Virus record (IMG/VR): IMGVR_UViG_3300018423_000056
Coordinates: 1-26,334 of that record
Length of the DNA: 26,334 bases
Direction: 5' to 3' (one strand)
From: a virus
Shown here: piece by piece, positions 4,836 to 24,846 of the stretch
Layout of the letters: each line of letters starts with the position of its first letter
Position numbering within the stretch: position 1 is the stretch's first letter
Notes under the pieces: model-generated
Database searches by the model: none
Told to the model about the DNA's origin: nothing
What the model saw: the letters and a program-made list of their open reading frames with translations, nothing else
Program-made: the position numbers and the translations under genes

Positions 4836-5738
4836 TCATCGCCTTTCTGACATCAACATTTCGATCAATTGTCGGTTGATTGAGATGTCGAGTTCATTCT
4901 GTAGAACACGCTGCTCCAAGGTTCGTGGAATCCCTGGTCCCGGAGTTCCTGGATCAGTAGGTGGTGTTGTTGGCTTCCCGTATCTGTCCTGAACACGCTT
5001 GGCATCTCGTGCTGTTGGAACGATAACGTTTCTCTGATAATACGGGTAGAGTAAAGCGTTACGATTCGAGTCGTGACCAAGTCCAAGGCCATGTCCGTCC
5101 TCATGACCGCTTACTGCCTTGAAGAAATTGAAGCTCCATCGTTCGCCGGAATCGAATCGACCAACCAATGTTGAGCCGGCAGGCTGTCCACAGTTAGGAA
5201 GGTAGTGATAAGCAAGCTTGCCACTTGAGCCATCCATACGTTCCATGCTGTGAACAAAGTTTGCAGAACGGGCACCATCGTAAGGCACATGCTTGAAGAC
5301 GATACCACAAACTTTCATCCACTCAACTTTTGCTTCCCACCACGCCTTGTGAATCTCTTCCTTTGACATAGCAGAGTGTGACAAGTTGTGAGTGCAAGTT
5401 AAGTTCTTCGTTGCCCACTTTCTTGTGCATGCTTCCTCAATTGAGAACTCAGCCCAACCATTTCCTTTACGCACGAATCCGTGATTAAGGTCAGGTAGCG
5501 CACAGCACTTATCATGCGTCCGCCGAATTGATTGAGGTCCGAAGTTACCATCTGGCAGCAGTCCCGCAAGTTCTTGGAATGCCAGCGTAGCATTTCGGAA
5601 TAGAGTGTCTTTTTCGGAGAGCTTGTCTGCATCGGGCATGTCACCTTCAAAGTAACCGTTGGCTGCCAAGTACTCAACCTTGTCCTTATGAGGTTCACGT
5701 AGTGGCGGTAAGTATCCATCGCTTTTTCGTGAAGGCAT
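4836..5738 (-). CDS. Matrixin-type (M10) zinc metalloprotease with peptidoglycan-binding-like prodomain
   Basis: 300 residues. Residues ~5-80 look like a PG_binding_1 / MMP prodomain: a three-helix pattern with FQELAGLLPDGNFGPQSIRR, ending in DKCCALPDL, which resembles the PRCGxPD cysteine switch of matrix metalloproteases. The catalytic domain follows (a WxxA ... VxFxHV pattern and ADIxF-like ANFVHSM) with the zinc site HEDGHGLGLGH. A Met-turn-like NALLYPYY follows, in which the usual Met is Leu. A proline/glycine linker and a helical tail end the protein. It would cleave proteins or peptide cross-links at the cell envelope. No signal peptide is visible, so it would need lysis or a virion to reach a target. 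It follows the exported 204-residue gene without a gap and precedes another exported gene. Confidence 0.85.
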   Translation of the reverse strand: MPSRKSDGYLPPLREPHKDKVEYLAANGYFEGDMPDADKLSEKDTLFRNATLAFQELAGLLPDGNFGPQSIRRTHDKCCALPDLNHGFVRKGNGWAEFSIEEACTRKWATKNLTCTHNLSHSAMSKEEIHKAWWEAKVEWMKVCGIVFKHVPYDGARSANFVHSMERMDGSSGKLAYHYLPNCGQPAGSTLVGRFDSGERWSFNFFKAVSGHEDGHGLGLGHDSNRNALLYPYYQRNVIVPTARDAKRVQDRYGKPTTPPTDPGTPGPGIPRTLEQRVLQNELDISINRQLIEMLMSERR

Positions 5739-5739
5739 A

Positions 5740-6354
5740 TTACTTGAGCACCCCTAACAGCTTAAGTAGTTGAACGATGGCTTCGATGATCAACAAGATC
5801 TCCGCGCCTGTAGCGTCTTCACGTTCGGAGTTAAGCAGCTCCGAAGATTCAACGTTGGCATAGTTACTTAAGCCTTCAGAAATCTTTGCGAGGTACGAAG
5901 GCAAATCATTTGCCTTTTCCATGCCTTCGTCAAAGACTTTCCAAGCAGGCGACCAGTCCTCCTCAAGTCGTCGGCCGGCAATACGACGTGCGACTTTAAA
6001 CGCAGTTTCAAATCCTGACTTATCCATTTCACCGGAAGCCAATTTGTCTGAAAAGAAAAGATAAGCGGCGGCTACGATCTCGGCATCCTTTTTGTTTCCG
6101 ATGGACTGTGCCATCCGCTCTGCTTCCTTTACGATAGGATCCTCATCCGGCGTGTCAGGCTCTTGTGGATCAGTCGGCGTCTGCCCGTTGGACGTGACGT
6201 CAATGACAACGTCGATCTTCTCGAAGTAAGGTGCAGCAGTCTGAGGCGTGATCATCAAGTAATAACCTGAATCGTTGATCACAAGTGTTCTACTGTCGCC
6301 AGCATAAACGACTGACGCACTAAGCATTAGTAAGAAAGTCAATAGCTTCTTCAT
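5740..6354 (-). CDS. Exported protein of unknown function with hydrophobic C-terminus
   Basis: 204 residues with a textbook signal peptide, KKLLTFLLMLSASVVYAG. A short beta-rich segment follows (TLVINDSGYYLMITPQT), then an acidic proline linker (residues ~58-75) and a helical domain of about 100 residues (AERMAQSIGN, AAAYLFFSDKLASGEMDKSG, VARRIAGRRLEEDWSPAWKVF). The last 20 residues (AEILLIIEAIVQLLKLLGVL) are strongly hydrophobic and could insert in a membrane or act as an amphipathic anchor. No family is recognised. The stop is separated from the metalloprotease ATG by one base, so the two are probably translated together and may act together in the envelope. Confidence 0.7.
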   Translation of the reverse strand: MKKLLTFLLMLSASVVYAGDSRTLVINDSGYYLMITPQTAAPYFEKIDVVIDVTSNGQTPTDPQEPDTPDEDPIVKEAERMAQSIGNKKDAEIVAAAYLFFSDKLASGEMDKSGFETAFKVARRIAGRRLEEDWSPAWKVFDEGMEKANDLPSYLAKISEGLSNYANVESSELLNSEREDATGAEILLIIEAIVQLLKLLGVLK

Positions 6355-6365
6355 GTCGGGATCTC

Positions 6366-6719
6366 CTAGTAATAATTCATGTGTCCTCGACGTTCGAGCT
6401 GAACACTTACGGTTACGTCAGGACCACCCGTCTCTTTAATGAACTTGAGGTTCTTGACGTTAACCTCTCCGAACACAACAGCAGTAGCGTCTCCACCTGA
6501 GTCATCAAGCATTAAGCCTGCGGCGCCAGTTGGGTTACCGCCGTCATAACGATAATGAAGTTGGCCGCCGTTCACAGAGAACACAGCAGCGTTCGCTTGA
6601 TCGAGTTCCTCAGCAGTAAAGTGAGACGTGATCGCGACAACAGATGTAGACGCTGTGAAGCTTGCGAATTCAATCGGCACAGGAACCTTTTCATTTCCAA
6701 TGTATTGCCTATGTACCAC
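6366..6719 (-). CDS. Small beta-rich virion protein candidate, GTG start
   Basis: 117 residues starting at GTG (6717-6719) with AAAGGAG six bases upstream; this signal and the start lie inside the last codons of the portal gene. The protein is beta-rich and without charge clusters (VPVPIEFASFTASTSVVAIT, GQLHYRYDGGNPTGAAGLML, EVNVKNLKFIKETGGPDVTV). This composition and the FGEVNVKNLKFI strand are seen in small phage head-tail or decoration proteins, but I cannot name a family. Location between portal and the exported cassette supports a structural role. Confidence 0.6.
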   Translation of the reverse strand: MVHRQYIGNEKVPVPIEFASFTASTSVVAITSHFTAEELDQANAAVFSVNGGQLHYRYDGGNPTGAAGLMLDDSGGDATAVVFGEVNVKNLKFIKETGGPDVTVSVQLERRGHMNYY

Positions 6720-7959
6720 TGGGCACTCCTTTCAAAAGATCTAATGCATCAGGACCATCGTCTGCAGGCATGTTAGGAATGCCAAGCCGTTCACGAACAG
6801 CTTCAAGATCGATGTTATCGATTTCTTGTAAGAACCCTTCCGGATTCGTTATCATAGCTTGGTAGAGTTGCTTGAGGTATTCTTTCTCTGTGTCGGCCAA
6901 ACTTGCAGGAACGATCTTAACCGTCTCCACAGCCTTGGGACCCCAGTTAAGGGCAAGCAATTGATTGACACAGTACTTGTTATAAAAGTTAACAAGCGTG
7001 AGGTGTCGAAGTTCAAGGTTGGTGATTGCGAAGTCACCGTGTTCACCAGCTTCAGCCTTTGTGCCGAACTGACCTTCAAGAATTGATCGTTCAGGAAATC
7101 CGAATGCTCGAACCTTAAGGGCATCAAGATACTTGAGACGATCAGTAAAGGACGCACTACTTGAAGCTGTGATAAGTTCAATGTGCCATGCATCAACAGG
7201 TTGTGAGTCAACGAATTCTTGAATGACGCGCGGCACCATGATACGCCCTGAGGATTCAAGCTTACCAAGAATGTCACGTGCTATGTCAGCGTTCGATACT
7301 TCCTCACCATTGTATAAGCTTTCGCCCATTGGGTAATGAACCACCCAGTGACTGCCGGCAATTTTAGAATCGTGTCGACTGGCGGCATCGTTGGCATCGT
7401 TCCACATGTTGTATGCAGACTCTGCGACCTTCATTGTTGGGTACCCATACCAATCGGTACCTTCGACATCGAATGCAACAGACAATGTTTCCTTTGAGTC
7501 AAGCAAGATCTCATCTTGTTTCAAGCCATAGAACGCGCCTGTCTGTTCATCAATTCTAATTTCTGTTATATCCTGCAGCAGCGGCTTGAGCTTTTTGTAC
7601 GTGATGTTTGAATCATCGTCGGTAACGAATACCTTTTCGTAACCTTGCCACCCAAAATCGATACAACCCATAAGCGATGTTCTTACGAGCTCGAACTTGA
7701 TCTTGAGCATCTCTCGTCGGATGAATTCAGTAGCGCCTTCAGGAACGTTTTCAGTTTCCTCAAAGGACCATGATGCTGCAAGTACTGGTGCTGCTACCAA
7801 CTGACGCACAAGCGAGATGGTCGGGTCACGACGCATCTTGCGAACTTTAGTGTACCAATCGAATCCAATGTTCGAGTTACCGATGGCACCACGGTCAGTC
7901 GTAACAGTTGATGTGCCGTAGGCGACTAACTGAGGTGGTGTCTTTTGCTTTGCTGTCAT
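6709..7959 (-). CDS. Portal protein, DUF935 / Mu gp29-like
   Basis: 416 residues, joined to the terminase gene by an ATGA overlap. Portal-type features are the early GFDWYTKVRKMRRDPTISLV followed by APVLAASWSFEE, a long wing domain (FELVRTSLMGCIDFGWQGYE), the stem-like RLKYLDALKVRAFGFPERSI and GTKAEAGEHGDFAITNLELR. A C-terminal helical part contains ADTEKEYLKQLYQAMI and PNMPADDGP. This arrangement agrees with the portal branch used by Mu-like phages, which forms the dodecameric DNA channel at one capsid vertex and docks the terminase. Length (usual 400-520) and the position just after TerL fit well. Confidence 0.88.
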   Translation of the reverse strand: MTAKQKTPPQLVAYGTSTVTTDRGAIGNSNIGFDWYTKVRKMRRDPTISLVRQLVAAPVLAASWSFEETENVPEGATEFIRREMLKIKFELVRTSLMGCIDFGWQGYEKVFVTDDDSNITYKKLKPLLQDITEIRIDEQTGAFYGLKQDEILLDSKETLSVAFDVEGTDWYGYPTMKVAESAYNMWNDANDAASRHDSKIAGSHWVVHYPMGESLYNGEEVSNADIARDILGKLESSGRIMVPRVIQEFVDSQPVDAWHIELITASSSASFTDRLKYLDALKVRAFGFPERSILEGQFGTKAEAGEHGDFAITNLELRHLTLVNFYNKYCVNQLLALNWGPKAVETVKIVPASLADTEKEYLKQLYQAMITNPEGFLQEIDNIDLEAVRERLGIPNMPADDGPDALDLLKGVPSGT

Positions 7960-12500: not shown

Positions 12501-12855
12501 TTGATGTGACATACATTTGCTGAACGCCGTTGAACGTTCCACAAAACCATACTCCGTTTAAGATCGTCCAAGCATTGTCTTGACTTGACTCAGGGCTGGC
12601 GGCCGATGGAAACGTCTCAAGTACTTTGTCATAGTCGGTGTTGTACCATGACGCCTTCCAAGAAGACCCATCCCAAGAGCCTCCTGTGCCGTCGTTATCT
12701 AATGCATCATTTGCAGAGTCATCAAGCGTACTAAAGTCATTGATATTATCAGTGCTAAACGCACCGGCCATTACGTGATGACCTAGGCTCGTGTAGTCAG
12801 TGAGAAAGGTCTTAAGCACGTCATAGACGTAATCGTTAGGATCGTATACTGTCAT
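9541..12855 (-). CDS. Large tail fibre / receptor-binding protein with degenerate helical repeats
   Basis: 1104 residues; the ATG overlaps the preceding glycosyltransferase-methyltransferase stop by four bases. The N-terminal ~650 residues are beta-rich with many G, W, S, T and D residues (GSWDGSSWKASWY, two successive jelly-roll/LamG-like stretches with WNQYDITVAYLEP and HIYVRHQAEIDG). Residues ~665-1060 are at least twelve diverged ~30-residue helical repeats of the type I-x-Q-x-L-x-A-M-x-Q-x-x-x-A (INQQLQAMVSEA, VNQVLKAINQAA, INQALQPLKSEL, VRQTLQAMTQTA). A charged tail (LKTEMSDELKLKVYK) closes it. Length, composition and position before terminase suggest a virion fibre. There is no recognised chaperone or enzymatic domain. 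Confidence 0.7.
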   Translation of the reverse strand: MTVYDPNDYVYDVLKTFLTDYTSLGHHVMAGAFSTDNINDFSTLDDSANDALDNDGTGGSWDGSSWKASWYNTDYDKVLETFPSAASPESSQDNAWTILNGVWFCGTFNGVQQMYVTSSGASETDFARVRCDVAVSGSTHPGQAVVFDYLNAVGLNSSSGGARMGALLQYSGVADTGYAVVCDASRTAAPFEFDIRVYSISAGTVTELHETLDVEWNWGGGGGASNVLMWFRVQAGVFSLCVGTDETKIWTWTDSNTSRFSGEYSGVCGDKGSVATNVALNEFRFFNIDDATSTLFNDNATPESDLSDSTSEFNDTGDTNVYQNIYPYVFCARYRTESNNWKHRASVEFTRSGTNLKRWLFPRSSYSNSGNAFVDNFTDGNGTTLASHTPDTGTSWAVGSLGSGSATIQSNAVRFYGQVDVRDWLALGVSGVESWHNYLQVNILQSRLDNYVGTKTVRQGLVVRYWNQYDITVAYLEPIGTLSAYLRIATVTWRNTTQETTTVLASVPVSLGDGTTWDQLAVWDLNGHIYVRHQAEIDGVTIQTCVAADAYDDVVSRYEIDGTHQLVTDGTWGCGLYAYDGTPFAGYVEMHWDSYVHTTDASVNLQADDADTDFYAGFVPVIGADIPPQGLTGTDLGFLVRGTWLPVDDYDVWYNAFAFLKFNIPAYYFYSINQQLPAFIQTAFWLVHEGPVAQVLAPLQQEAFWVNIASMEQTLQAMQQAVTASVPPQSVSQIDSLLASLRTGITVYNPQSVAEVESILPTLTQSIQASYDYVYEAIQDLPAFQQSLAAAGEHAGAISTYLAMLLTNAEVYPENSLDVESVLQAMVSSATGPASSAGQINQQLQAMVSEAVVEISILSNIAQSLQPIKQEVYTASIHLASISSDFPAMSQGMEAIIEVEAAVNSVLAAIDAVAIGRTDFSAQVNQVLKAINQAAAAAADYEATINQALQPLKSELDGSTEIGSSIAQRLEALNLFAEATGTEFEIRQNLVALQMSAFASILTDTEVRQTLQAMTQTAESLNDVAAAINTGLGYLQALSTVQAIDDATINSVLSAMSNAGQIKVEERGIYRILLKVFAAKSLELKTEMSDELKLKVYKDEMRHL
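9678..10880 (-). repeat. Degenerate ~90-base repeat region inside the fibre gene
   Basis: Minus-strand coding for repeated units such as INQQLPAF, MEQTLQAMQQ, VESVLQAMVS, INQQLQAMVS, IAQSLQPIKQ, VNSVLAAIDA, VNQVLKAINQ, INQALQPLKS, IAQRLEALNL, IRQNLVALQM, VRQTLQAMTQ and INSVLSAMSN. Spacing is mostly 30-36 residues. At DNA level the units are well diverged, with only short matches (for example the complement of CTTGCAAG-type stretches). They probably form a long helical or coiled-coil rod. Confidence 0.75.
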
Positions 12856-14045
12856 GGTCTAATGATTCCCCATCCATTATACTCTGTCTTATCGAGCGTG
12901 CACTCATCAAAGACCTTGCGAATGCCTTTATAGGTAGGATGATCCAAGTCATCCATAATGATCGTGCCACCCGGTGCTAAGTACTCATAGGCCTCTTGTA
13001 AGTCGTGACGAACACCTGATTCACTGTGATCACCATCAATGAATATGAAGTCATAACGACCTGTGATGTACTCAGGAAACCCGTTGCTGTCAGGTTCACG
13101 ATAATGAGCGACGACGTTGGTTCTTTGAGTTGCTGCAAGCGTGTCCCATACGTTAGGAGCACGGTGCATCGATATGTTAAGGTCTAACGTATCCACGTGA
13201 TCGAATATTACACTTAAGTATGCAGCTCCAACTCCATAACACGTTCCTATCTCAAGTGCACGTCTTGAAGGCTTATCACTGAAGTATGACGCAAGCCATA
13301 AGGCTCGAGCGTATGTCATAAAAGGAACGCCATGTACGACTTTATCGATGTCCTCGATTGTTTTGCATTTAATGTTACATTCATATTGAAGATACATAGC
13401 CTTCACAGCATTGAAGTACCAGCGTTCGCGCATGCTTAATTGCTTACGTGTCTTACCTATTTTATTAAACACATGGTCATAGGAACACGTGTTCTTGCCG
13501 TGATACCAGCGTACATAATTAGTGGGCGAGTTGTCGATTACATCAAGGTCTTCGAGTTGAGACGTGATGTGATAGTCCTCGTGCATCATCTTATGAGGGT
13601 AGCCTATCTTTCTGACATCTTCGGTCTTTGCACAAAAGAGTCCGACGAATCCGAACTTACCACCTTGAGCGACGAAAGGATCAACGTCGTGAAGATCGCA
13701 GATGATCATGTTCTTAAGTGTGTTGGGACGGCCAGTAAGTTCGATTTGTCCTAGCTGAAGGTTGACTCGATCTCTCCCATGATAGTCGTCATCGTCCCAG
13801 TGCATGATGTAAGGAGTCTGCACGAGGTCAAGCGCATACTCTCTGGCCTCTCCGATTGTTTCAAAGGGCTCTACGAACACCTCCTTAACGTTTCGATAGT
13901 TATCACCGGCAATTCGTGTGCCTCCTTGGTTGATGATCAGGAGCTCAGCACAATCAACCGTCTGCCTCATGAATGAACGCAATGACTTACGTGCAAAGTC
14001 CTCACGGCATTTGGTCGTCAGCATTACGCATGTGACTTTAGTCAT
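12852..14045 (-). CDS. Glycosyltransferase family 2 fused to class I SAM methyltransferase
   Basis: I choose the ATG at 14045 because it overlaps the previous stop (ATGACTAA) and has GAGAGG in front; a further upstream ATG at 14084 lies inside the previous gene. The product has 397 residues. Residues 1-~210 are a GT-A domain: TKVTCVMLTTKCREDFARKS, LLIINQGG and the metal-binding HWDDDDYHGRD. Residues ~250-397 are a Methyltransf_24-type domain: RALEIGTCYGVGAAYLSV (motif I), DTLDLNI, YDFIFIDGDHSESGVRHDL and LAPGGTIIMDDLDH. One polypeptide may thus add and then methylate a sugar. It lies between another glycosyltransferase and the fibre, so host surface or virion glycan is the likely target; the acceptor is unknown. 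Confidence 0.85.
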   Translation of the reverse strand: MTKVTCVMLTTKCREDFARKSLRSFMRQTVDCAELLIINQGGTRIAGDNYRNVKEVFVEPFETIGEAREYALDLVQTPYIMHWDDDDYHGRDRVNLQLGQIELTGRPNTLKNMIICDLHDVDPFVAQGGKFGFVGLFCAKTEDVRKIGYPHKMMHEDYHITSQLEDLDVIDNSPTNYVRWYHGKNTCSYDHVFNKIGKTRKQLSMRERWYFNAVKAMYLQYECNIKCKTIEDIDKVVHGVPFMTYARALWLASYFSDKPSRRALEIGTCYGVGAAYLSVIFDHVDTLDLNISMHRAPNVWDTLAATQRTNVVAHYREPDSNGFPEYITGRYDFIFIDGDHSESGVRHDLQEAYEYLAPGGTIIMDDLDHPTYKGIRKVFDECTLDKTEYNGWGIIRP

Positions 14046-14889
14046 CCTCTCGCCTTCCTTTGAAATACTGAAGCATAGCGTCATTGAACCTGGGATCAGT
14101 CCAAGTCCACAAAGGACCTTCCTTGACGATATGCTTCCTGGGATCGAAACCTAAACGTCTTAAGATATGGAACCTTTCATTGTACTTACGGTTGTCATGG
14201 GACCCGTGTGGAAAGTAACGTAGCATTCCTTGTGTGCAGCCGATGTCTGCTTGGCACTCCATGTTAACGGGAAAGCACTGTTTCATTGCCTCTTGTTTCC
14301 ATATAGGACTTAGGGAATCGAACATTGGATGTTCCCACCAGCCTGTGACCGCGTTCAGCATCAGGCGATCGCCTCCGCCGCATATAGCGACATCAGGTAT
14401 AGGTCCTATATGAGATCGCCAAGCTAATGAGTACCCAGGCTTAGCGTGCCACGTAGGATTTAATCGGATCTTGTACGTTGCAGCAAACGACGGAAAAATC
14501 CTTGGGTCGTATTCCATGTCATAGCATTGCACAGATGTGAAGGGCTGCACGACCTTGTGTACGTCGAGCAACTGCTCTGTTTTAATTAACCAGTCTTGGT
14601 CACTGAAGAGTATGTCAGCGTCGCACCAACACAGGTACGGCTTAACAGACATTGCGGCTGCGTGATTTATCAGCGCTTCCTTTTGCCACGCTACATGACG
14701 ATCTCGTGACCCACGAACAATGATATGATTCGCTGCTAAGTACTCAAGGTCAAGAGGTTCATCGTCATCATACACGAGCTCAACAACTGTCGTCGGATAA
14801 GCATGGGCAGTAAGCGACCTTATGAGGTTCTCAACAGGTTTCTTGTACCTACAAGGATTAAAGAATGGTATGATTACTTCCGTGCGCAT
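14038..14889 (-). CDS. GT-A glycosyltransferase
   Basis: 283 residues. The N-terminus RTEVIIPFFNPCRYKKPVENL is the nucleotide-binding start of GT-A folds, VELVYDDDE follows, and YLCWCDADILF carries the DxD metal/nucleotide-sugar motif. A distal CGGGDRLMLNAVTGWW and the HGSHDNRKYNERFHILRRLG block, which is common in phage and capsule-type glycosyltransferases of this group, lie in the second half. It should transfer a sugar from an NDP-sugar in the cytoplasm. Start ATG at 14889 overlaps the preceding gene by 16 bases; its stop overlaps the next gene. Substrate and acceptor are not predictable. Confidence 0.85.
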   Translation of the reverse strand: MRTEVIIPFFNPCRYKKPVENLIRSLTAHAYPTTVVELVYDDDEPLDLEYLAANHIIVRGSRDRHVAWQKEALINHAAAMSVKPYLCWCDADILFSDQDWLIKTEQLLDVHKVVQPFTSVQCYDMEYDPRIFPSFAATYKIRLNPTWHAKPGYSLAWRSHIGPIPDVAICGGGDRLMLNAVTGWWEHPMFDSLSPIWKQEAMKQCFPVNMECQADIGCTQGMLRYFPHGSHDNRKYNERFHILRRLGFDPRKHIVKEGPLWTWTDPRFNDAMLQYFKGRREDD

Positions 14890-16328: not shown

Positions 16329-16991
16329 TCAGTCCGGACTCTTTGGGATCGAATCGAACATGCCTTGCACATCTTTATCCGGAGTAAGTTCAGTGCCTGA
16401 CACATCGCTGGGTAATTTTATTTCATCCTTGACTCGACGCTCAAACTCACGTGCTATAGTTTCGTTGTCCTCGCCGCATACGACATACAGCAGACGAACC
16501 AGTTGATTCACGATCTGCTTGAGGTCCATCGGTGTGATGGCATCTTTTCGTGTTGATTCGACAGCAGCAGCGTCTTTGCACATTTGGGCGACAGACTGCA
16601 AGGCCTCTCGCATTAGTATGGCCGCTGACATTATCGTTTCGTCTCGATTGTCTTGATCTTCGGGGATCTCATTAGCACCAGAGAAAAGCTTAACAGCCTG
16701 AGCGCACGTCATACGCATAAGGGCGAGCTCTTCCTGTAGGTTTAACTGTTCAGAAGAGTCAAGATCGAGCTGGGCCTCGAGTGCTTCGTTTAATGTATTC
16801 GTTAGGTACTTAGAATAAAACATTGGTAGGCTGTAGTTCCTGACCTTTGCTCGCTTGCCGCTTCCTCCATGAAACTGACAGAAGCGAGAACCAGTGATTG
16901 CCCACTTAGCGCATCGATGACCGGTGTGCCTGATCCTTTGACATTGGCGTTCATGTCCTTCGGGTGGTCGACCCTGCAAGAAACCAGTCAA
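16329..16991 (-). CDS. Putative small terminase subunit with N-terminal Cys/His zinc motif
   Basis: 220 residues, joined to the sigma-like gene by a four-base overlap. The start carries CQRIRHTGHRCAKWAITGSR then FCQFHGGSGKRAKVRNYS. This C-x8-C ... C-x2-HGG motif is common near the N-terminus of phage small terminases and related DNA-binding proteins. The middle is helical (LNLQEELALMRMTCAQAV, MREALQSVAQMCKDAAAV) and MDLKQIVNQLVRLLYVVC follows, compatible with an oligomerising packaging-initiation protein. There is no other small-terminase candidate in the window. It lies about 7 kb from the large subunit, so the pairing is inference. Confidence 0.6.
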   Translation of the reverse strand: MTGFLQGRPPEGHERQCQRIRHTGHRCAKWAITGSRFCQFHGGSGKRAKVRNYSLPMFYSKYLTNTLNEALEAQLDLDSSEQLNLQEELALMRMTCAQAVKLFSGANEIPEDQDNRDETIMSAAILMREALQSVAQMCKDAAAVESTRKDAITPMDLKQIVNQLVRLLYVVCGEDNETIAREFERRVKDEIKLPSDVSGTELTPDKDVQGMFDSIPKSPD

Positions 16992-17455
16992 GTCCAGATC
17001 TCCCGGGCTTCCTCAAGCGCCTTGTGTATCATAGTATGTGCAGTGCCCATGCTTACGTCATAGTACACAGAGATCTCTTCCGTTGTGCAACCGTTCATGT
17101 ACTTAAGATAAAGTATTTCACGTGATGCGTGGGACAAGCTCTCCAGTATTTCTATTACCTCTAAGCGGGTAGAGTATTCAACTACTTGTGACCTTTCATT
17201 GAGCTGCTCTAAGGCTCCATGCTGCAAGCGCTTGTTCACGTACTTCCAAACGTATGCTCTTATCGTTACTGCGACATAAGTCCACAAAGGCCGGACCTCG
17301 TCCCAAAGTTCGATGCAGCGTGGCACCTTCACTAACACTACGTCAGACCAGAGTTCCTCTTCGAGATCACGCCGGCCACGGCTGCCGATACGACATATGT
17401 TCCGAAGCCGGCGTTCATTCTCAAGTATGTACTCCCACGGGTCAGGCTTATCCAT
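16988..17455 (-). CDS. Sigma-factor-like protein (ECF / sigma-70 group)
   Basis: I use the ATG at 17455 (MDKPDPWEYI), which has AAAGG seven bases upstream, rather than a TTG at 17512 without a signal; the product has 155 residues. Residues ~1-80 fit a region 2: NICRIGSRGRRDLEEELWSD, LWDEVRPLWTYVAVTIRAYVWKY. Residues ~100-152 fit a region 4 helix-turn-helix: LSHASREILYLKYMNGCTTE then EISVYYDVSMGTAHTMIHKA. This is the layout of extracytoplasmic-function sigma factors. It probably redirects host RNA polymerase to phage late promoters; the AT-rich region just upstream is a natural target. It might instead act as a phage transcriptional regulator without sigma activity, because region 2 is diverged. 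Confidence 0.72.
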   Translation of the reverse strand: MDKPDPWEYILENERRLRNICRIGSRGRRDLEEELWSDVVLVKVPRCIELWDEVRPLWTYVAVTIRAYVWKYVNKRLQHGALEQLNERSQVVEYSTRLEVIEILESLSHASREILYLKYMNGCTTEEISVYYDVSMGTAHTMIHKALEEAREIWT

Positions 17456-17518
17456 GCCTGTGCCTTTCTTACTTGCCGCCGCAAGCTGTGCAGCGGTAAC
17501 GATTCCCAACAAAATAGG

Positions 17519-19275: not shown

Positions 19276-20448
19276 TTACTTTCGTTTGTAACCTCCGAAC
19301 TCATCCCAGTACATATCTTTCTGGAACTTGTCTGGATCGACCAATAACTTATCGATCATGTCGTCAAAGATTTCCCACTTGGGAACAAGATGCAACTTAA
19401 CGGACTCACGCATCTGTTCTCTGAACTCTACATCCTTCCAAAGAATCTCTGCCTTCTCTTTAAACTCAGCCGGCGTCTTCATTCGACACCAGTGATCTTT
19501 AGGCAAGAGCTCACAACCTTCATCGTACTCAGGATGAAACAGCGGGATGCATCCTTGTGAGATCATGATGTAAGGCTTACCAGTCAAGAACCCTTTCGTA
19601 TGCGGAACGACTGGCCCGCACACATGCATTTGGAATTGCTTGAACACTTCTGCCGGCTTGAGCTTACCACACCAAGGAAGGTTCTCTTGTGGCCCATCGT
19701 ATGAGTCCCAACCCTCACCGAAGATTTCAGTACCTTCAGGCAAGTTGTCAAGTAGCTCATACCAACGTTCAGGCTTACCCATCTTGATACCAGTGTTGAA
19801 GTGAGCGTGAGCCACGATGACCGCTGGGTATTGGTTCGTGTTTTCACGTTCATACTGATAGGCCCAAGATTGACAATTGGCAAACTTGGAGTGAACAGCA
19901 TACTCTTGTCCACCCACTACTTTGTTGAACGACGCCTCACACTGATCAAGCAAAGCAGCGGGTCTGCAATAATCCGAGTACCACGTCATCTCCTGATCCC
20001 GAGGGTAACTGCGTGGATCATTACTTAGGACGATACGAGGTAACTGCAACTCGTGTAGAGCCTGCAGCATCGGAGCATTGTACCGAATAGCAAAAGCCAA
20101 GCAAGCAGCGCCCATAGGATTCCAACCTAAGGAACTTGTAGGCGCTTGACCCGTAACATTGATCATTGCGATCGGGTCATGCTTACTTAACTCTTCGTGG
20201 TCTTTGGCGTAGGCCTCGCGTTGCTCAGATTCGAGCGACCAGTTGTCGAGACCTTCAATAGTCGATTGCACAACAGTAAGACCAGGTATGACCTCACCGC
20301 GGTACTGACCATAGAAGACTACATTGCAGTCTCCACGATCAATCAAGCGGCGAATGACTCCTTCCGTTTCGCCTTGCTCACCACGTTCAATAACAAGGTC
20401 GCGTGTGTAAAACACTGACCCTCCTTTGCATACGATTAAGGTCTTCAT
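19276..20448 (-). CDS. GT-B-like glycosyltransferase
   Basis: I place the start at the ATG at 20448, which overlaps the preceding stop (ATGA) and has GGAGG upstream; a TTG at 20466 is part of that signal. The product has 390 residues. The N-terminal half has a Rossmann-like opening (KTLIVCKGGSVFYTRDLVIE), a central NPMGAACLAFAIRYNAPML and IVLSNDPRSYP. The C-terminal half contains PAVIVAHAHFNTGIKMGKPE, EIFGEGWDSYDGP and MHVCGPVVPHTKGFLTGKPY then IMISQGCIPLFHPEYDEG, the typical GT-B donor-binding end. It probably uses the NDP-sugar made by the adjacent nucleotidyltransferase. Acceptor unknown. Confidence 0.7.
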   Translation of the reverse strand: MKTLIVCKGGSVFYTRDLVIERGEQGETEGVIRRLIDRGDCNVVFYGQYRGEVIPGLTVVQSTIEGLDNWSLESEQREAYAKDHEELSKHDPIAMINVTGQAPTSSLGWNPMGAACLAFAIRYNAPMLQALHELQLPRIVLSNDPRSYPRDQEMTWYSDYCRPAALLDQCEASFNKVVGGQEYAVHSKFANCQSWAYQYERENTNQYPAVIVAHAHFNTGIKMGKPERWYELLDNLPEGTEIFGEGWDSYDGPQENLPWCGKLKPAEVFKQFQMHVCGPVVPHTKGFLTGKPYIMISQGCIPLFHPEYDEGCELLPKDHWCRMKTPAEFKEKAEILWKDVEFREQMRESVKLHLVPKWEIFDDMIDKLLVDPDKFQKDMYWDEFGGYKRK

Positions 20449-21131
20449 GCTTCGTGAATCCTCCAAAGATTAAGATAAGTTTGATATGTGGGAACAGTCC
20501 CAAGGTCCATCCATTCATTCGTCCACTGAGCAGACAACTTAACGCCTTTTATTTTCTGATCGTTCAAGAAGTTGATCAAAGGACCATCCATGTCTTCCAT
20601 CGTTGATCTTTTCAAGCCAAGAAAGCCGGCAAGATAATACTTATGTACTCCATTGTCTCTTTCAGACCATTGGCATGTCTTAAGGTGGTTTGGCTCGTAA
20701 CGATCAAGTTCGGGTAACTTTGTTTGAGCGTCATAACTAATGTAGGTACAGTAATCGGGTATGCCGTTTTTCACAATGCTCATGGTGTGAGGGTCAGGTA
20801 ACGTTGGGTAGCGGTTGTCACCGAAGGTAATGACGGAGTTGTCACTGCAAAGAACAGCTGCTCGGTTAAGCGCATCGCTTATGCCCACAGGCTTGGGTTG
20901 CACAACGAACTCAACCTCAGGGCAGTCGCCTTCATAGTACTCTGAGCGAATCTTCCAATAGGATTCCACGACCCTTGATCGGTCTTGCACAACGACGATG
21001 TTTTCGATTGTCTCGTGTTGCCTTAAAAAGTTCAAGGCAGACTCGAACATAACGCCGCCCTTTATTGGAAGTAAGACCTTGTTCTCAAGGCGTGTTGACT
21101 TGCCGGCTGTCAGTATGATTCCTGTACTCAT
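20445..21131 (-). CDS. Sugar-phosphate (or choline-phosphate-type) nucleotidyltransferase
   Basis: 228 residues. Signature GIILTAGKSTRLENKVLLPI at residues 4-23 is the L-x-x-G-x-G-T/S-R-L ... K-x-L-L-P-I loop of nucleotidyltransferases. QPKPVGISDALNRA at ~78-91, FGDN at ~103 and EWMDLGTVPTYQTYL at the C-terminus complete the RmlA/LicC/GlmU-type GT-A fold. It transfers NMP from NTP to a phosphorylated substrate, releasing PPi. The nearby APH-fold kinase and HAD phosphatase suggest it activates a substrate that the kinase phosphorylates. Substrate could be a hexose 1-phosphate, a heptose or phosphocholine; the sequence does not decide. The start overlaps the preceding stop by one base. Confidence 0.88.
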   Translation of the reverse strand: MSTGIILTAGKSTRLENKVLLPIKGGVMFESALNFLRQHETIENIVVVQDRSRVVESYWKIRSEYYEGDCPEVEFVVQPKPVGISDALNRAAVLCSDNSVITFGDNRYPTLPDPHTMSIVKNGIPDYCTYISYDAQTKLPELDRYEPNHLKTCQWSERDNGVHKYYLAGFLGLKRSTMEDMDGPLINFLNDQKIKGVKLSAQWTNEWMDLGTVPTYQTYLNLWRIHEA

Positions 21132-21547
21132 TACTTTTCTCCTATTTCAATATCACGAACATCGATGAAGCGAACGTGTATCGTCGCTCCAAGACCTCTC
21201 ACATAAGAGATCGGAATTAAGGCGTCGCGCATGTCGCGCTTGGTCTTTTCAGGTTTTGATCTGATAAGGAATATGATCCCGGGTTCGTTACCAGTTTTCA
21301 TCGCATACCGTAAACTCTGAGACAAGGCTGCGTCATATTTGTCCAACCATTCGACTTCCCAAACGATGTCCTGTTGAAGGATATCGGGACGTGTACCGTC
21401 AGGCAAAATGAACTGTGTAGTCGACCCAGGCATCGACTTTGCAATTGCTTCAGTGTAGTCGTCTTCCTTAGGCTGAGCAAAGCCAACTTGGGACATCACG
21501 ATTAGTGTACTCAAGCAAATGGTATTTCTCAAACATATAGTAGTCAT
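21131..21547 (-). CDS. Exported nuclease-like protein
   Basis: 138 residues; ATG with AAGG six bases upstream, overlapping the preceding gene by 80 bases. A signal peptide (TICLSTLIVMSQVGFAQ) precedes a compact domain: TQFILPDGTRPDILQQDIVW, EVEWLDKYDAALSQSLRYAM, KTGNEPGIIFLIRS. The G-x-R-x-D ... E-V-E-x-x-x-K-x-x-x-A-x-x-Q-S-L-x-Y-A pattern resembles a family of small secreted proteins with a PD-(D/E)XK-like core. If active it would cut DNA in the periplasm, for example incoming competing phage DNA. It may be an inactive member; the acidic and basic residues are consistent but not proof. Confidence 0.62.
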   Translation of the reverse strand: MTTICLRNTICLSTLIVMSQVGFAQPKEDDYTEAIAKSMPGSTTQFILPDGTRPDILQQDIVWEVEWLDKYDAALSQSLRYAMKTGNEPGIIFLIRSKPEKTKRDMRDALIPISYVRGLGATIHVRFIDVRDIEIGEK

Positions 21548-21941
21548 GATAAGCCTTCACTGGGTCGTCTTGATAGTACTCCTCAGGCATAGCTTGAGGA
21601 GGGTCAAAGAAGTAGTGAGATGGAAACTTAAAGTGCTGAACATCAACACTCAAGTCATCAAGTATGAAATGAGTCTTGTGCCACTTATTGAACCTATGCT
21701 TGTACTCATAGGAAAGTTGATAGGCTAGTGTAAGTGTCCATCTATAATTGCCAGCAGCAGACCTTACCCACTTGGCACAAGGATGATTGTAATGCGTAAG
21801 CTTGTATGGAGCAAAGAACCCGTAATGAATCCTTGCAGTCGACAGCAATTGAGCAGACTCAATTAACATCTTACCTACATGCTTATCACAATGATACTTG
21901 GCCGCATCATAAGGAGATCGTGACAAAAAGAATATGTTCAT
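21468..21941 (-). CDS. Conserved phage protein (often annotated as pyrimidine-dimer DNA glycosylase-like)
   Basis: 157 residues. The start NIFFLSRSPYDAAKYHCDKH then VGKMLIESAQLLSTARIHYG, THYNHPCAKWVRSAAGNYRW, KWHKTHFILDDL and FFDPPQAMPEEYYQDDPVKA, YHDYYMFEKYHL are the hallmarks of a widespread phage family (N-terminal D-x-x-x-x-x-A-x-x-x-C-D-K-H-V-x-K-M-x-x-E). These proteins are thought to be related to DNA repair enzymes, but the activity is unproven. The conserved histidines and aspartates suggest a metal-binding or catalytic helical fold. The gene starts one base before the previous stop. Confidence 0.75.
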   Translation of the reverse strand: MNIFFLSRSPYDAAKYHCDKHVGKMLIESAQLLSTARIHYGFFAPYKLTHYNHPCAKWVRSAAGNYRWTLTLAYQLSYEYKHRFNKWHKTHFILDDLSVDVQHFKFPSHYFFDPPQAMPEEYYQDDPVKAYHDYYMFEKYHLLEYTNRDVPSWLCSA

Positions 21942-22135
21942 CAGTAACGTCCTATAAACTTAAAGTACTTTGGCTCGAAACCGCACCAGTCAATTGTAAC
22001 ATGTGTCACAGTGTTTGTCAACATGATTCGACGCGAGGGTAGTACTAAGTCAACTATGTATTCATAGCCTGTCAGTTCTGACTTGACCCTGTCACCGATA
22101 CTGGGTCGACGATTGCTTCTAAAGTACGTTTTCAT
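21941..22135 (-). CDS. Small beta-rich protein of unknown function
   Basis: 64 residues, linked to the HAD gene by an ATGA overlap and to the next gene by a one-base overlap (TGATG), so it is probably translated in the chain. The sequence (PSIGDRVKSELTGYEYIVDL, VLPSRRIMLTNTVTHVTIDW) resembles a small SH3-like beta barrel. No family is recognised. Confidence 0.6.
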   Translation of the reverse strand: MKTYFRSNRRPSIGDRVKSELTGYEYIVDLVLPSRRIMLTNTVTHVTIDWCGFEPKYFKFIGRY

Positions 22136-22500
22136 TTGTCATCTCCATAAGAGTGCCAGCCTTCTTTCATTCCGGCGTCGCGTTTACAGTTCACAGCGTG
22201 CGCTGACTTTTGACCGTTAGGTTTCATATCGTTTACTAATGTGCGTGGACCGCTGCCGCAGTTCATAAGCAGCGCATCCCAATACAAACCTTTGCGACGT
22301 AACTGATCTTGCAGCCACTGACGATTCGATTCCTTGCGGCCTGTCATCAACACTATGTGACAGCCTTGTGATTCCCAATCAGCAAACTGCTCCAAGACAC
22401 CGGGCAGTATGGTGATAGGATTAGTCCATTCCCATGGACGACAATGTTTGATGACTGTTCCATCAATGTCAACGATAACACATTGCTTCTTACAATTCAT
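22132..22500 (-). CDS. HAD-superfamily phosphatase, capsule-locus type
   Basis: I use the ATG at 22500 with AAGGAG eight bases upstream; a TTG six bases earlier is less likely. The product has 122 residues. Motif I is CVIVDIDGTVI (nucleophile and acid Asp), motif II is IVLMTGRKESN, and the third region has GPRTLVNDMKP and SAHAVNCKRDAG. The N-D-x-K-P plus A-x-A-x-N-x-x-R-D-x-G ending is the type found beside sugar kinases and nucleotidyltransferases in capsule loci, rather than the polynucleotide 3'-phosphatase type. It probably removes a phosphate from a sugar or polyol intermediate. It lies between the kinase and nucleotidyltransferase genes. Confidence 0.8.
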   Translation of the reverse strand: MNCKKQCVIVDIDGTVIKHCRPWEWTNPITILPGVLEQFADWESQGCHIVLMTGRKESNRQWLQDQLRRKGLYWDALLMNCGSGPRTLVNDMKPNGQKSAHAVNCKRDAGMKEGWHSYGDDK

Positions 22501-23191
22501 TTGCAATACTCCTTGCTCTATCTAATGCCCACTTACGATACTTGAATGGATGAAGGTCTTTGTGACAAGCTAAACGAATGTAGTGTGTTGCCAGCAAAGC
22601 CCAGTGCACGTGAGAGATATCAAATCCTAACGCGCCGGGTTGACTGCCGTGTTTCATTTTGTGCCACCCGTCATATGACTGCAAGATCTTTGATTCGTCA
22701 AGCTCCATGCAGTCAAGACCGCGGCTCTTTCCTGGGTCGATGAGTTTCACTTCACCATGTGAAAGTATAACGTTCTCACAAGTAAGGTCGCCATGACAAA
22801 AAGCTACAGGCGTGAGATGCTTGTCACGAATCGTTCGCCATATAGGATCAGCCCATTCACTTGACGAACTGTGCTCGATCAAAGAAAGCCGCTCCTTACA
22901 GTACTCGATGTAGTGTTCCTTGTCTACGCTTAAGGTAGTTTCGATGCAAGGGTTGAACCAGACATGACTCTCCATGAAATCGTGGATGACGTCAGGCTGT
23001 GCATGAACCCCGGAAATGTAATCATACACAAGACACTGAGGACTTATTGCCTTTAGGTTGTCAGCGATAACACTATGAGGTAACTTAAGCAGCCTTGCGA
23101 CTTGCCAAGTAGCATCAGGACAAAGCTTGATAATAATGTCGCAAGTTTTCGTCTTGTGTCGATGGACAGTCTGCTGCAAGTTTGTCATCAC
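22490..23191 (-). CDS. APH / choline-kinase-fold small-molecule kinase
   Basis: 233 residues from GTG 23191 (or ATG three bases later), overlapping the ligase gene by 77 bases. The catalytic loop is at ~131-140 (FCHGDLTCENVIL; Asp and Asn), and the metal-binding Asp is in VKLIDPGKSRG at ~152. Near the N-terminus CDIIIKLCP may carry the ATP-binding Lys. The fold is that of aminoglycoside phosphotransferases, choline kinases and sugar kinases. Given the HAD phosphatase and nucleotidyltransferase downstream, I infer phosphorylation of a sugar, polyol or amino-alcohol precursor of a surface glycan. Drug resistance is unlikely from the context. Confidence 0.82.
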   Translation of the reverse strand: MMTNLQQTVHRHKTKTCDIIIKLCPDATWQVARLLKLPHSVIADNLKAISPQCLVYDYISGVHAQPDVIHDFMESHVWFNPCIETTLSVDKEHYIEYCKERLSLIEHSSSSEWADPIWRTIRDKHLTPVAFCHGDLTCENVILSHGEVKLIDPGKSRGLDCMELDESKILQSYDGWHKMKHGSQPGALGFDISHVHWALLATHYIRLACHKDLHPFKYRKWALDRARSIANEL

Positions 23192-23945
23192 GGAACCTTT
23201 TGAATGTTGGGTGTCTTAGCCGGCCTTTAGTGCCGACACATTGGTATTGAACTTCAACTACTTTGCCGATGTAGTATTCTTCGCGACAAGAGATTTCTTC
23301 ACGGGTATCGACATCCATCCCTGATACGTTTGCAACTTCGTATCCTTCTGATGTGCTACATATAATCGACCCAATGAATCCTTCATGAGCGCCTTGGCCT
23401 TCGGTGTACCCAGTGATGATGAGGTCAATGGTTTCTTGAGGCTTATACTTATACCAGTCATACATGTTTCCGTTCTTAAGTACGTAACCTTCAATGTCAC
23501 CGCCTATAGGTAACTCACGGACGTTATCGAATCGACCAAGAGATCCCATAAGCGACATCGTTTCGTCAACCCAAAAGTCGAGAAACGTGAAGCCCCAGTT
23601 CTCGCACGTTAACTTAGTGGCTCCTAAGTCTTGTGCGTGATGAAGGCTTGGTGAGCAGAACGCATCGAAGCGAAGGTTCTTATCTTCTTTAGCAATAGCC
23701 GAGGACACATAAGATGCAGGTTCACCTGGGTACCAAAGTTCTCCCCACACCTCAGTGTCTCTCGGCATCTCAAGCACGCCCAACATCAGTGTCGGACAGA
23801 ACTTGAGTTTCTCGTAGTATTCCTTTGTGTTACGTGACTTGATGCTAACACGGCCGGCAGTGTCCTTTCGTACCCTCATCTGCCAGCCATCGTGTTTAGC
23901 ATGAGCAAAAGCAACAGGCTGATTCTTGTACCTCGGAGCCTTCAT
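23115..23945 (-). CDS. ATP-dependent DNA ligase, minimal type
   Basis: 276 residues; ATG overlaps the preceding stop (ATGA). Motif I is AKHDGWQMRV with the adenylated Lys at 17, an SRNTKEY motif follows at ~37, motif III is VWGELWY (~66-72), IIIa lies near RFDAFC (~92), motif IV is IEGYVLK (~151-157) and motif V is WYKYKP (~164-169). The C-terminal ~90 residues (VVEVQYQCVGTKGRLRHPTF) form the OB fold with motif VI near RHPTFKRFRDD. This compact size is close to the Chlorella-virus ligase. It seals nicks during phage replication or repair. Start is close to motif I, so there is no DNA-binding N-terminal domain. Confidence 0.9.
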   Translation of the reverse strand: MKAPRYKNQPVAFAHAKHDGWQMRVRKDTAGRVSIKSRNTKEYYEKLKFCPTLMLGVLEMPRDTEVWGELWYPGEPASYVSSAIAKEDKNLRFDAFCSPSLHHAQDLGATKLTCENWGFTFLDFWVDETMSLMGSLGRFDNVRELPIGGDIEGYVLKNGNMYDWYKYKPQETIDLIITGYTEGQGAHEGFIGSIICSTSEGYEVANVSGMDVDTREEISCREEYYIGKVVEVQYQCVGTKGRLRHPTFKRFRDDKLAADCPSTQDENLRHYYQALS

Positions 23946-24486: not shown

Positions 24487-24846
24487 TTACTCGTCGTCAG
24501 CATCCTCCTCAGGACCCTCAGACTCGTCATCTTCATCATCGCCTTCGACTTCATCATCGACTTCGACTTCATCATCGACTTCGACTTCATCGTCGACTTC
24601 GACTTCGTCAGCATCTTCGGTCTGACGTTGACGCGGCTCTTCGTCGGACTCGACCATCGGCATCGGTGCGCCTTTGATCTCATGTTCGTTGAGCAACTTG
24701 AAGGCGTCGTTCAACGCTTGTGGATCATCGGTGCTGATGATGAACGCACCTTCGGCTTGCTTAACTTCGACGTTCATGCTGGTCAGCTTTTCTTTCACTT
24801 CGTTTGGGCATTGCCCGTGGAAGCTTGATTCACGTGTATGTCCCAT
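24487..24846 (-). CDS. Small protein with extremely acidic repeat tail
   Basis: 119 residues; AAAGGA lies upstream of the ATG. Residues 1-~62 are an ordinary small alpha/beta domain (CPNEVKEKLTSMNVEVKQAE, AFIISTDDPQALNDAFKLLN). From ~74 on the protein is nearly all E, D and V, with four EVEVDD-type units and a DDEDDESEGPEEDADDE end. Acidic tails in phage early proteins often imitate DNA or bind basic host proteins, but nothing shows the target here. The gene lies between two intrinsic terminators; no clear promoter was found just before it, so its expression may depend on readthrough. Confidence 0.7.
   Translation of the reverse strand: MGHTRESSFHGQCPNEVKEKLTSMNVEVKQAEGAFIISTDDPQALNDAFKLLNEHEIKGAPMPMVESDEEPRQRQTEDADEVEVDDEVEVDDEVEVDDEVEGDDEDDESEGPEEDADDE
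24547..24609 (-). repeat. 18-base tandem repeat in the acidic-tail gene
   Basis: About three and a half copies of GACTTCATCATCGACTTC (plus-strand reading) with single changes in the last copies. They encode EVEVDD units on the minus strand and could vary in number by slippage. Confidence 0.85.

Follow-up and report, generated by a model that had tools for sequence, protein, structure and literature searches.

The DNA of phage RB69 bears arabinose on cytosine (PMC6024577), through a linkage since revised to 5-hydroxycytosine in a June 2026 paper that describes the sugar pathway of such phages as not characterized (PMC13390438). A pentose-cytosine modification has also been described in Shewanella phage Thanatos (PMC12838424). 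The DNA beta-glucosyltransferase (BGT) of phage T4, a phage that encodes the dCMP hydroxymethylase gp42, takes host UDP-glucose. Here we consider four genes, for a kinase, a HAD phosphatase, a nucleotidyltransferase (NT) and a glycosyltransferase (GT), in IMG/VR virus record IMGVR_UViG_3300018423_000056, the whole of which (26,334 b) was analysed and is called the window. They most likely represent a new variant of phage DNA hypermodification, and on gene content, homology, conserved linkage and the fold similarity of the GT we consider it quite probable that the sugar is bound for the phage's own DNA by the general scheme given below. Related sets adjoin DNA-base-modifying genes in scores of other phages, largely unannotated. 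An earlier reading of the window, made from its letters alone (the sequence-only reading), had proposed a phage-borne activated-glycan pathway serving the host surface, the virion or DNA. The present work supports the idea that the phage makes an activated sugar which the neighbouring GT uses, and DNA is the destination favoured by the BGT-like GT, by linkage to genes of the thymidylate-synthase family (TS-family) and to C5-methylase-like genes, and by the TET/TAGT operon of Synechococcus phage S-CBWM1; the emphasis on capsule and LicC did not hold.

The window GT showed in Pfam only a match to Glyco_trans_1_2 at 0.036, and in the scans made here neither PHROG nor Pfam had a family dedicated to its kind. 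When a profile of the phage GT family was made from its other members, the window GT nevertheless scored 69.5 bits (2.7e-20) with it, against 5.8 bits for the best of 2000 shuffles. When the family profile (20 members) was compared with all PDB sequences, the best match was T4 DNA beta-glucosyltransferase (3.4e-5; 0.006 with a smaller alignment). A Foldseek search with a structure model of the window GT (pLDDT 62, pTM 0.65) returned T4 BGT at ranks 1, 2, 4, 5 and 7, with a best value of 1.2e-6 and TM of 0.45-0.54. The columns of Arg195 and Arg269, residues of BGT for UDP binding, correspond to Arg228 and Lys291 of the window GT, and are invariant in 20/20 aligned members. From the profile and the model, we propose that the window GT is a DNA glycosyltransferase of a T4-BGT-like phage family.

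Members of this family were located along two paths. Scanning with the HAD subfamily yielded 80 viral loci and 9 genome loci, the latter (from a scan with four HADs) mostly marine metagenome-assembled; with near-copies removed, and named phages and the window added, 82 HAD loci were counted. Among the 81 non-redundant HAD-anchored loci other than the window, taken as a control, TS-family and C5-methylase-like genes were found in L038 and L043 only, and in 0/79 of the others. These two are also the only ones that have the window's GT family, near-copies aside, and the family profile matched no further open reading frame (ORF) of the HAD loci besides the window GT. L038 and L043 had pointed to the GT family but were themselves picked up by way of the HAD, so these two cannot count as independent of it; all other GT loci were picked by the GT alone. 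In this second scan, of viral_contigs, 252 candidate stretches were confirmed and 80 kept, which together with L038 form 14 groups below 80% identity; the linkage counts are counts of loci, only partly corrected for relatedness, and many of the contigs are short. A C5-methylase-like gene was present in 79 of the 80 GT-picked contigs, the HAD in 70 and a TS-family gene in 53, and kinase, HAD and NT occurred jointly in 64/83 loci (L038, L111 and L113 among them; catalytic-motif matches counted). All 60 TS-family sequences compared (57 loci and 3 references, overlapping) have Asp at the column of ThyA Asn177; Asp in place of this Asn of thymidylate synthase is a known mark of cytidylate specificity. 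As for the C5-methylase-like protein itself (for instance L107:11217-12479, L113:5363-6577 and L038:9450-10670), a Cys is kept in the catalytic motif, but PRCT, PVCS or PCAG takes the place of the usual PCQ.

A search of annotated phages with the L043 GT identified Enterococcus phages 9183, TJE4 and Planchet and Pseudoalteromonas phage XG4. Planchet and 9183 carry, in a row, genes for a nucleotide kinase, a TS-family protein, a dUTPase, the HAD, an NT::kinase fusion and the GT, and in XG4 the order is TS-family, HAD, NT::kinase, GT, a further ORF and C5-methylase. Some cassettes consist of NT::kinase with a separate HAD, others of HAD::kinase with an HxGH cytidylyltransferase, an enzyme unrelated to the RmlA-like NT that would serve the same step. 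Two loci (L117 and L118) add an SIS isomerase and a member of the ribulose-phosphate epimerase family, and thus pentose or hexulose phosphates are indicated in those phages. The SIS protein of L043 was considered as an arabinose-5-phosphate isomerase and set aside, its nearest solved relative being YckF. We found no account of the four-gene set with TS-family and C5 genes in open-licence papers, though earlier descriptions may exist.

The remainder of the window's phage could be read from IMG/VR contig 3300023116_000076 (47,760 b), which holds the entire window at 99.88% identity; its 430-b ends are 97% alike, and hence it is probably near complete. Outside the window, and on the strand of the four genes, it encodes MazG-like, C5-methylase-like, TS-family and nucleotide kinase-like proteins, as well as SNF2-like, primase/helicase-like and polymerase A-like proteins (these last labels read from sequence, without search). 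The TS-family gene overlaps both the C5-methylase-like gene and the nucleotide kinase gene. Its product has the cytidylate-type Asp at the ThyA Asn177 position and finds its best solved match in MilA, a CMP 5-hydroxymethylase (2e-27). In a tree it grouped with the Planchet protein (96/97), and T4 gp42 fell among the proteins of other cassettes, placements that are unsure because of long branches. No Tet_JBP or TAGT gene was found in the 47.8-kb genome, and a TET route was excluded for this phage.

Such a route is found in S-CBWM1, whose genes stand in the order Tet_JBP (within gp8, 3e-20), TAGT (gp9, 40.6 bits), HAD, NT and kinase. As in the window, kinase, NT and HAD lie directly beside a gene of a DNA-GT family, and gp12 is the closest named relative of the window kinase (30% identity over most of the length; 8e-13, an E-value for that single comparison) and scores just above the APH cut-off. 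Unlike the window's phage, with its TS-family protein and BGT-like GT, S-CBWM1 has TET and TAGT, and its HAD belongs to another subfamily. When S-CBWM1, AG-345-E15, S-SRM01 and TJE1 were searched with PF00303, no TS-family gene turned up in any of them, so the trios of these phages are not TS-linked; TET occurs in S-CBWM1 only. The gp8 gene (L006:3549-4985) is annotated as an SNF2 DNA repair protein, yet it holds the Tet_JBP dioxygenase domain.

The arabinosylation set of RB69 and other Mosigvirus phages (PMC6024577, PMC13390438) shares with the window's phage the NT and APH-type kinase domains, a small HAD, a nucleotide kinase gene, a TS-superfamily cytidylate enzyme with Asp and a GT-B transferase. 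RB69 ORF053/052 is an NT::kinase that matches the fused family of the GT loci (4e-23 for the kinase part, 9e-15 for the NT part), and ORF051c contains a HAD related to that of Planchet (1.8e-13) and also to those of XG4 and S-CBWM1. A phosphatase domain in ORF051c and a presumed role in arabinosyl modification were noted before (PMC8056088). The ORF051c gene (L114:3709-4095) is annotated as a phosphoheptose isomerase, yet its product is a member of the small HAD phosphatase family. RB69 differs in having an SIS isomerase (ORF055c) and a fused NT::kinase, whereas kinase and NT are separate in the window's phage, which is without the isomerase; moreover, the arabinosyltransferase ORF003c was unmatched by the window GT-family profile at E 10.

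In Thanatos, by description, an NT plus phosphotransferase TH1_060 and a dCMP hydroxymethylase-like TH1_062 resemble the present set, but it is a further protein, TH1_063, to which the UDP-xylose pyrophosphorylase activity of Thanatos is ascribed (PMC12838424). With T4 the window's phage has in common the sequence profile and fold of the GT, the alignment of Arg228 and Lys291, and TS-family partners of gp42 type. In the T4 gp42/b-gt stretch examined, no gene is annotated as kinase, HAD or NT. The GDP-heptose pathway (HddA, GmhB, HddC) would follow the logic proposed here, of a 1-kinase, a phosphatase and a nucleotidyltransferase. HddA is, however, a GHMP kinase, the window NT scored 16.0 bits with the HddC model (cut-off 300), and the 47.8-kb genome is without an SIS isomerase. 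A heptose reading, prompted by the SIS and transketolase genes of some HAD loci, was dropped for the window on that last ground. These comparisons suggest a single enzyme set (anomeric kinase, small HAD and NT) that is found again with DNA glycosyltransferases of several kinds and with either route of base preparation, TS-family or TET, and they yield an ordered, assayable pathway and a plausible role for RB69 ORF051c.

The most economical scheme runs from kinase through HAD and NT to GT, and this order is less certain than the DNA destination; we infer each reaction, its place in the order, the sugar and the base. The kinase would phosphorylate C1 of a host-derived sugar-n-phosphate to give a sugar-1,n-bisphosphate, from which the HAD would strip the original phosphate; the NT would turn the resulting sugar-1-phosphate into an NDP-sugar, from which the BGT-like GT would glycosylate 5-hydroxymethyl- (or 5-hydroxy-) cytosine of the phage DNA. 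Enzymes encoded outside the window in the same genome would prepare this base, namely the TS-family (d)CMP hydroxymethylase-type enzyme, the nucleotide kinase and the MazG-like pyrophosphatase, and the modification would presumably shield phage DNA from host nucleases. We incline, with some reserve, to the broader view that a widespread family of phage DNA glycosyltransferases, each with its own kinase-phosphatase-NT set, places a phage-made non-glucose sugar on modified cytosine, some members having swapped the RmlA-like NT for the HxGH cytidylyltransferase. The sugar of these phages is possibly other than arabinose and may differ among them. The BGT-like family occurs in many viral contigs, and the bases that its members make could be new to DNA and of interest for restriction, CRISPR and type IV enzymes.

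Several observations weigh against this interpretation. The GT model is of moderate confidence, and bacillithiol BshA small-molecule GTs rank close after T4 BGT. The column of BGT Glu272, a residue that holds the nucleotide ribose, is Glu in 19 members and Ile294 in the window GT alone, a change that could reflect use of another nucleotide or reduced activity. Profiles relate the window NT and kinase only distantly (E 6e-4 and 8e-4) to the NT::kinase fusions of the other GT loci, and the window HAD belongs to a different subfamily from that of RB69, with no match between them; among solved proteins, polynucleotide phosphatases come nearest to it. Some 7 kb, running across the contig ends, separate the four genes from the TS-family and C5 genes, which are thus non-adjacent. 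No isomerase or epimerase (SIS, SIS_2, Rpe) was found in the 47.8-kb genome, and for this reason a host sugar phosphate is assumed in the scheme. Finally, most phage cassettes of HAD and NT::kinase adjoin GatZ-like, AroE-like or transketolase genes and not base-modifying genes.

The four genes lie on one strand (Table 1), and the placement and overlapping chain described in the sequence-only reading were confirmed, with three small ORFs intervening between HAD and NT. From the ligase to the GT each gene overlaps the next, and Shine-Dalgarno-like sequences precede the ATG of the NT (ggag) and of the GT at 20448 (ggagg). The start of the ORF next to the NT is uncertain: its first ATG gives an 80-b overlap with the phrog_624 gene, and alternative ATGs lie at 21496 and 21433. 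The four-gene set is also present in two near-identical IMG/VR contigs, of which the 47,760-b contig is one, and scans of viral_contigs with single window proteins (NT, kinase, GT, HAD) returned near-identical contigs only.

Table 1. The operon of the four genes and the features within and next to it, in window coordinates.
Feature	Coordinates	Strand	Description
Glycosyltransferase (GT)	19276..20448	-	GT-B, 390 aa, T4-BGT-like phage family; proposed DNA glycosyltransferase
Nucleotidyltransferase (NT)	20445..21131	-	RmlA/MobA-like, 228 aa; proposed sugar-1-phosphate nucleotidyltransferase
ORF of up to 138 aa, start uncertain	21131..21547	-	No family match
phrog_624 'DNA binding protein'	21468..21941	-	phrog_624 4e-46; weak Pyr_excise 8e-4, under cut-off
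64-aa ORF	21941..22135	-	Inside operon; no family match above chance
HAD	22132..22500 (ATG start)	-	Small capless HAD phosphatase, 122 aa; proposed remover of non-anomeric phosphate from sugar bisphosphate
Kinase	22490..23188	-	APH/choline-kinase-fold small-molecule kinase, 232 aa; proposed sugar(-phosphate) 1-kinase
ATP-dependent DNA ligase	23115..23945	-	Directly upstream of kinase, same operon, outside proposed pathway; phrog_114 3e-37, DNA_ligase_OB_2 6e-13

The HAD-anchored loci bear both on the unity of the trio and on where its sugar goes. NT and kinase were both present in 36 of the 82, NT only in 17, kinase only in 4 and neither in 25; an NT::kinase fusion occurs in 39 loci and a fusion of the HAD with an NT in others. 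That the genes are linked and fused time and again is an argument for a single pathway. Many of the loci carry GatZ-like, AroE-like, SIS, transketolase or GDPD-like genes, labels given partly by resemblance: a Pfam check confirmed AroE-like and SIS, the GatZ-like and GDPD-like families had no Pfam match, and transketolase is a label by resemblance. Such company suggests glycan synthesis, and because many HAD loci look to be of this type the trio alone does not reveal the sugar's destination. It could be that the nucleotide-sugar serves a host-surface or virion glycan, the GT acting on lipopolysaccharide, capsule or a virion protein for superinfection exclusion or virion decoration. The HAD subfamily and NT::kinase are indeed often met in phage loci of glycan type that also have GatZ-like, AroE-like, SIS/transketolase and SDR genes together with several GTs, the NT::kinase-HAD of S-SRM01 adjoins GDP-fucose genes, and the window itself has GT2 and methyltransferase genes elsewhere. 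We nevertheless regard this destination as unlikely: the glycan-type loci are without the window's GT family, whose own loci have base-modifying genes, the nearest solved relative of the GT is a DNA glucosyltransferase, and the four genes share their strand with the replication genes of the same genome. The GT2 genes in question are a GT2::Methyltransf_24 fusion (12852-14084) and a second GT2 gene (14038-14889) beside a 1104-aa gene; for the suggestion that they use the same donor we found no evidence, nor any link to the DNA-type cassette.

Other arrangements of the trio were seen as well. A second recurrent cassette comprises HAD, NT::kinase, GatZ-like and AroE-like dehydrogenase genes, some with SIS and a split transketolase (L017, L018, L021, L027, L029, L030, L033, L037, L041, L048, L054, L072 and L094), and looks, from its gene families, like a source of an unusual nucleotide-sugar for glycans. 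In L039, L062, L067, L097, L101, L102, L103 and L104 an NT::HAD fusion is followed by a small cupin-like and a GDPD-like protein. Marine virus AG-345-E15 (L012:1397-3254, 4998-7229) has two versions, a free-standing kinase with NT::HAD and a free-standing HAD with NT::kinase.

The enzyme classes named in the sequence-only reading (kinase, HAD phosphatase, nucleotidyltransferase and GT-B transferase) were upheld by Pfam, motifs and profiles. The HAD has the motifs DIDGT, TGRKES and ND; it reached HAD_PNKP at 27.6 bits, exactly the cut-off, with Acid_phosphat_B just below its own (26.1 bits), and the Pfam scan of the 122-aa protein gave HAD matches only and no 5'-polynucleotide kinase domain. 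That it would act as a sugar-bisphosphate phosphatase we infer only, because the nearest solved relatives are PNKP phosphatases. The HAD might instead be a polynucleotide 3'-phosphatase that serves nucleic-acid end repair together with the neighbouring DNA ligase, in which case kinase, NT and GT would be unrelated to it; a HAD of this kind paired with the ligase is what the sequence-only reading had named as refuting its proposal. To the Pfam match and the ligase directly upstream can be added matches to phrog_415 and phrog_505 (polynucleotide kinase; 1e-7 and 4e-7), and bacterial Pnkp1 is the best solved match of the HAD profile (4.5e-9). The context does not bear this out, and we judge it very improbable: the HAD is a free-standing protein that lacks the 5'-kinase domain of PNKP; none of the HAD-anchored and GT-anchored loci has a homologue of the window ligase; other phages (L039, L062 and others) have the subfamily joined to NT, and in many it stands beside NT::kinase; and D,D-heptose bisphosphate phosphatase also fits the HAD profile (0.0065).

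The NT scored above the cut-offs of NTP_transf_3 (30.2 bits, 5.9e-7) and NTP_transferase (26.9 bits, 4.3e-6). In the kinase the catalytic motifs HGDLTxEN and IDP are intact, its structure model was unusable (pLDDT 37.5), and a search against PDB sequences gave no match for kinase or NT. Least credible of all is a LicA/LicC-like pathway in which CDP-choline or a similar non-sugar group decorates a surface polymer, since, although the kinase finds its best Pfam match in Choline_kinase (1.3e-4, 21.8 bits, cut-off 29; APH 6e-3, also under its cut-off) and CTP_transf_3 matches the NT (2.5e-4, 21.4 bits, cut-off 22.6), no LicA/LicC-type enzyme was found above curated cut-offs, LicA/LicC needs no phosphatase and yet the HAD is kept beside or fused to NT/kinase, and the pentose-phosphate epimerase and SIS isomerase genes of L117 and L118 indicate sugars.

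Elsewhere in the window, a Matrixin-type (M10) metalloprotease with a peptidoglycan-binding domain is encoded among the head genes (4836-5738), and a Sigma-70 region 4 protein lies between the structural genes and the operon (16988-17512). The protein encoded at 24487-24846 has a strongly acidic EVEVDDEVEVDDE repeat tail.

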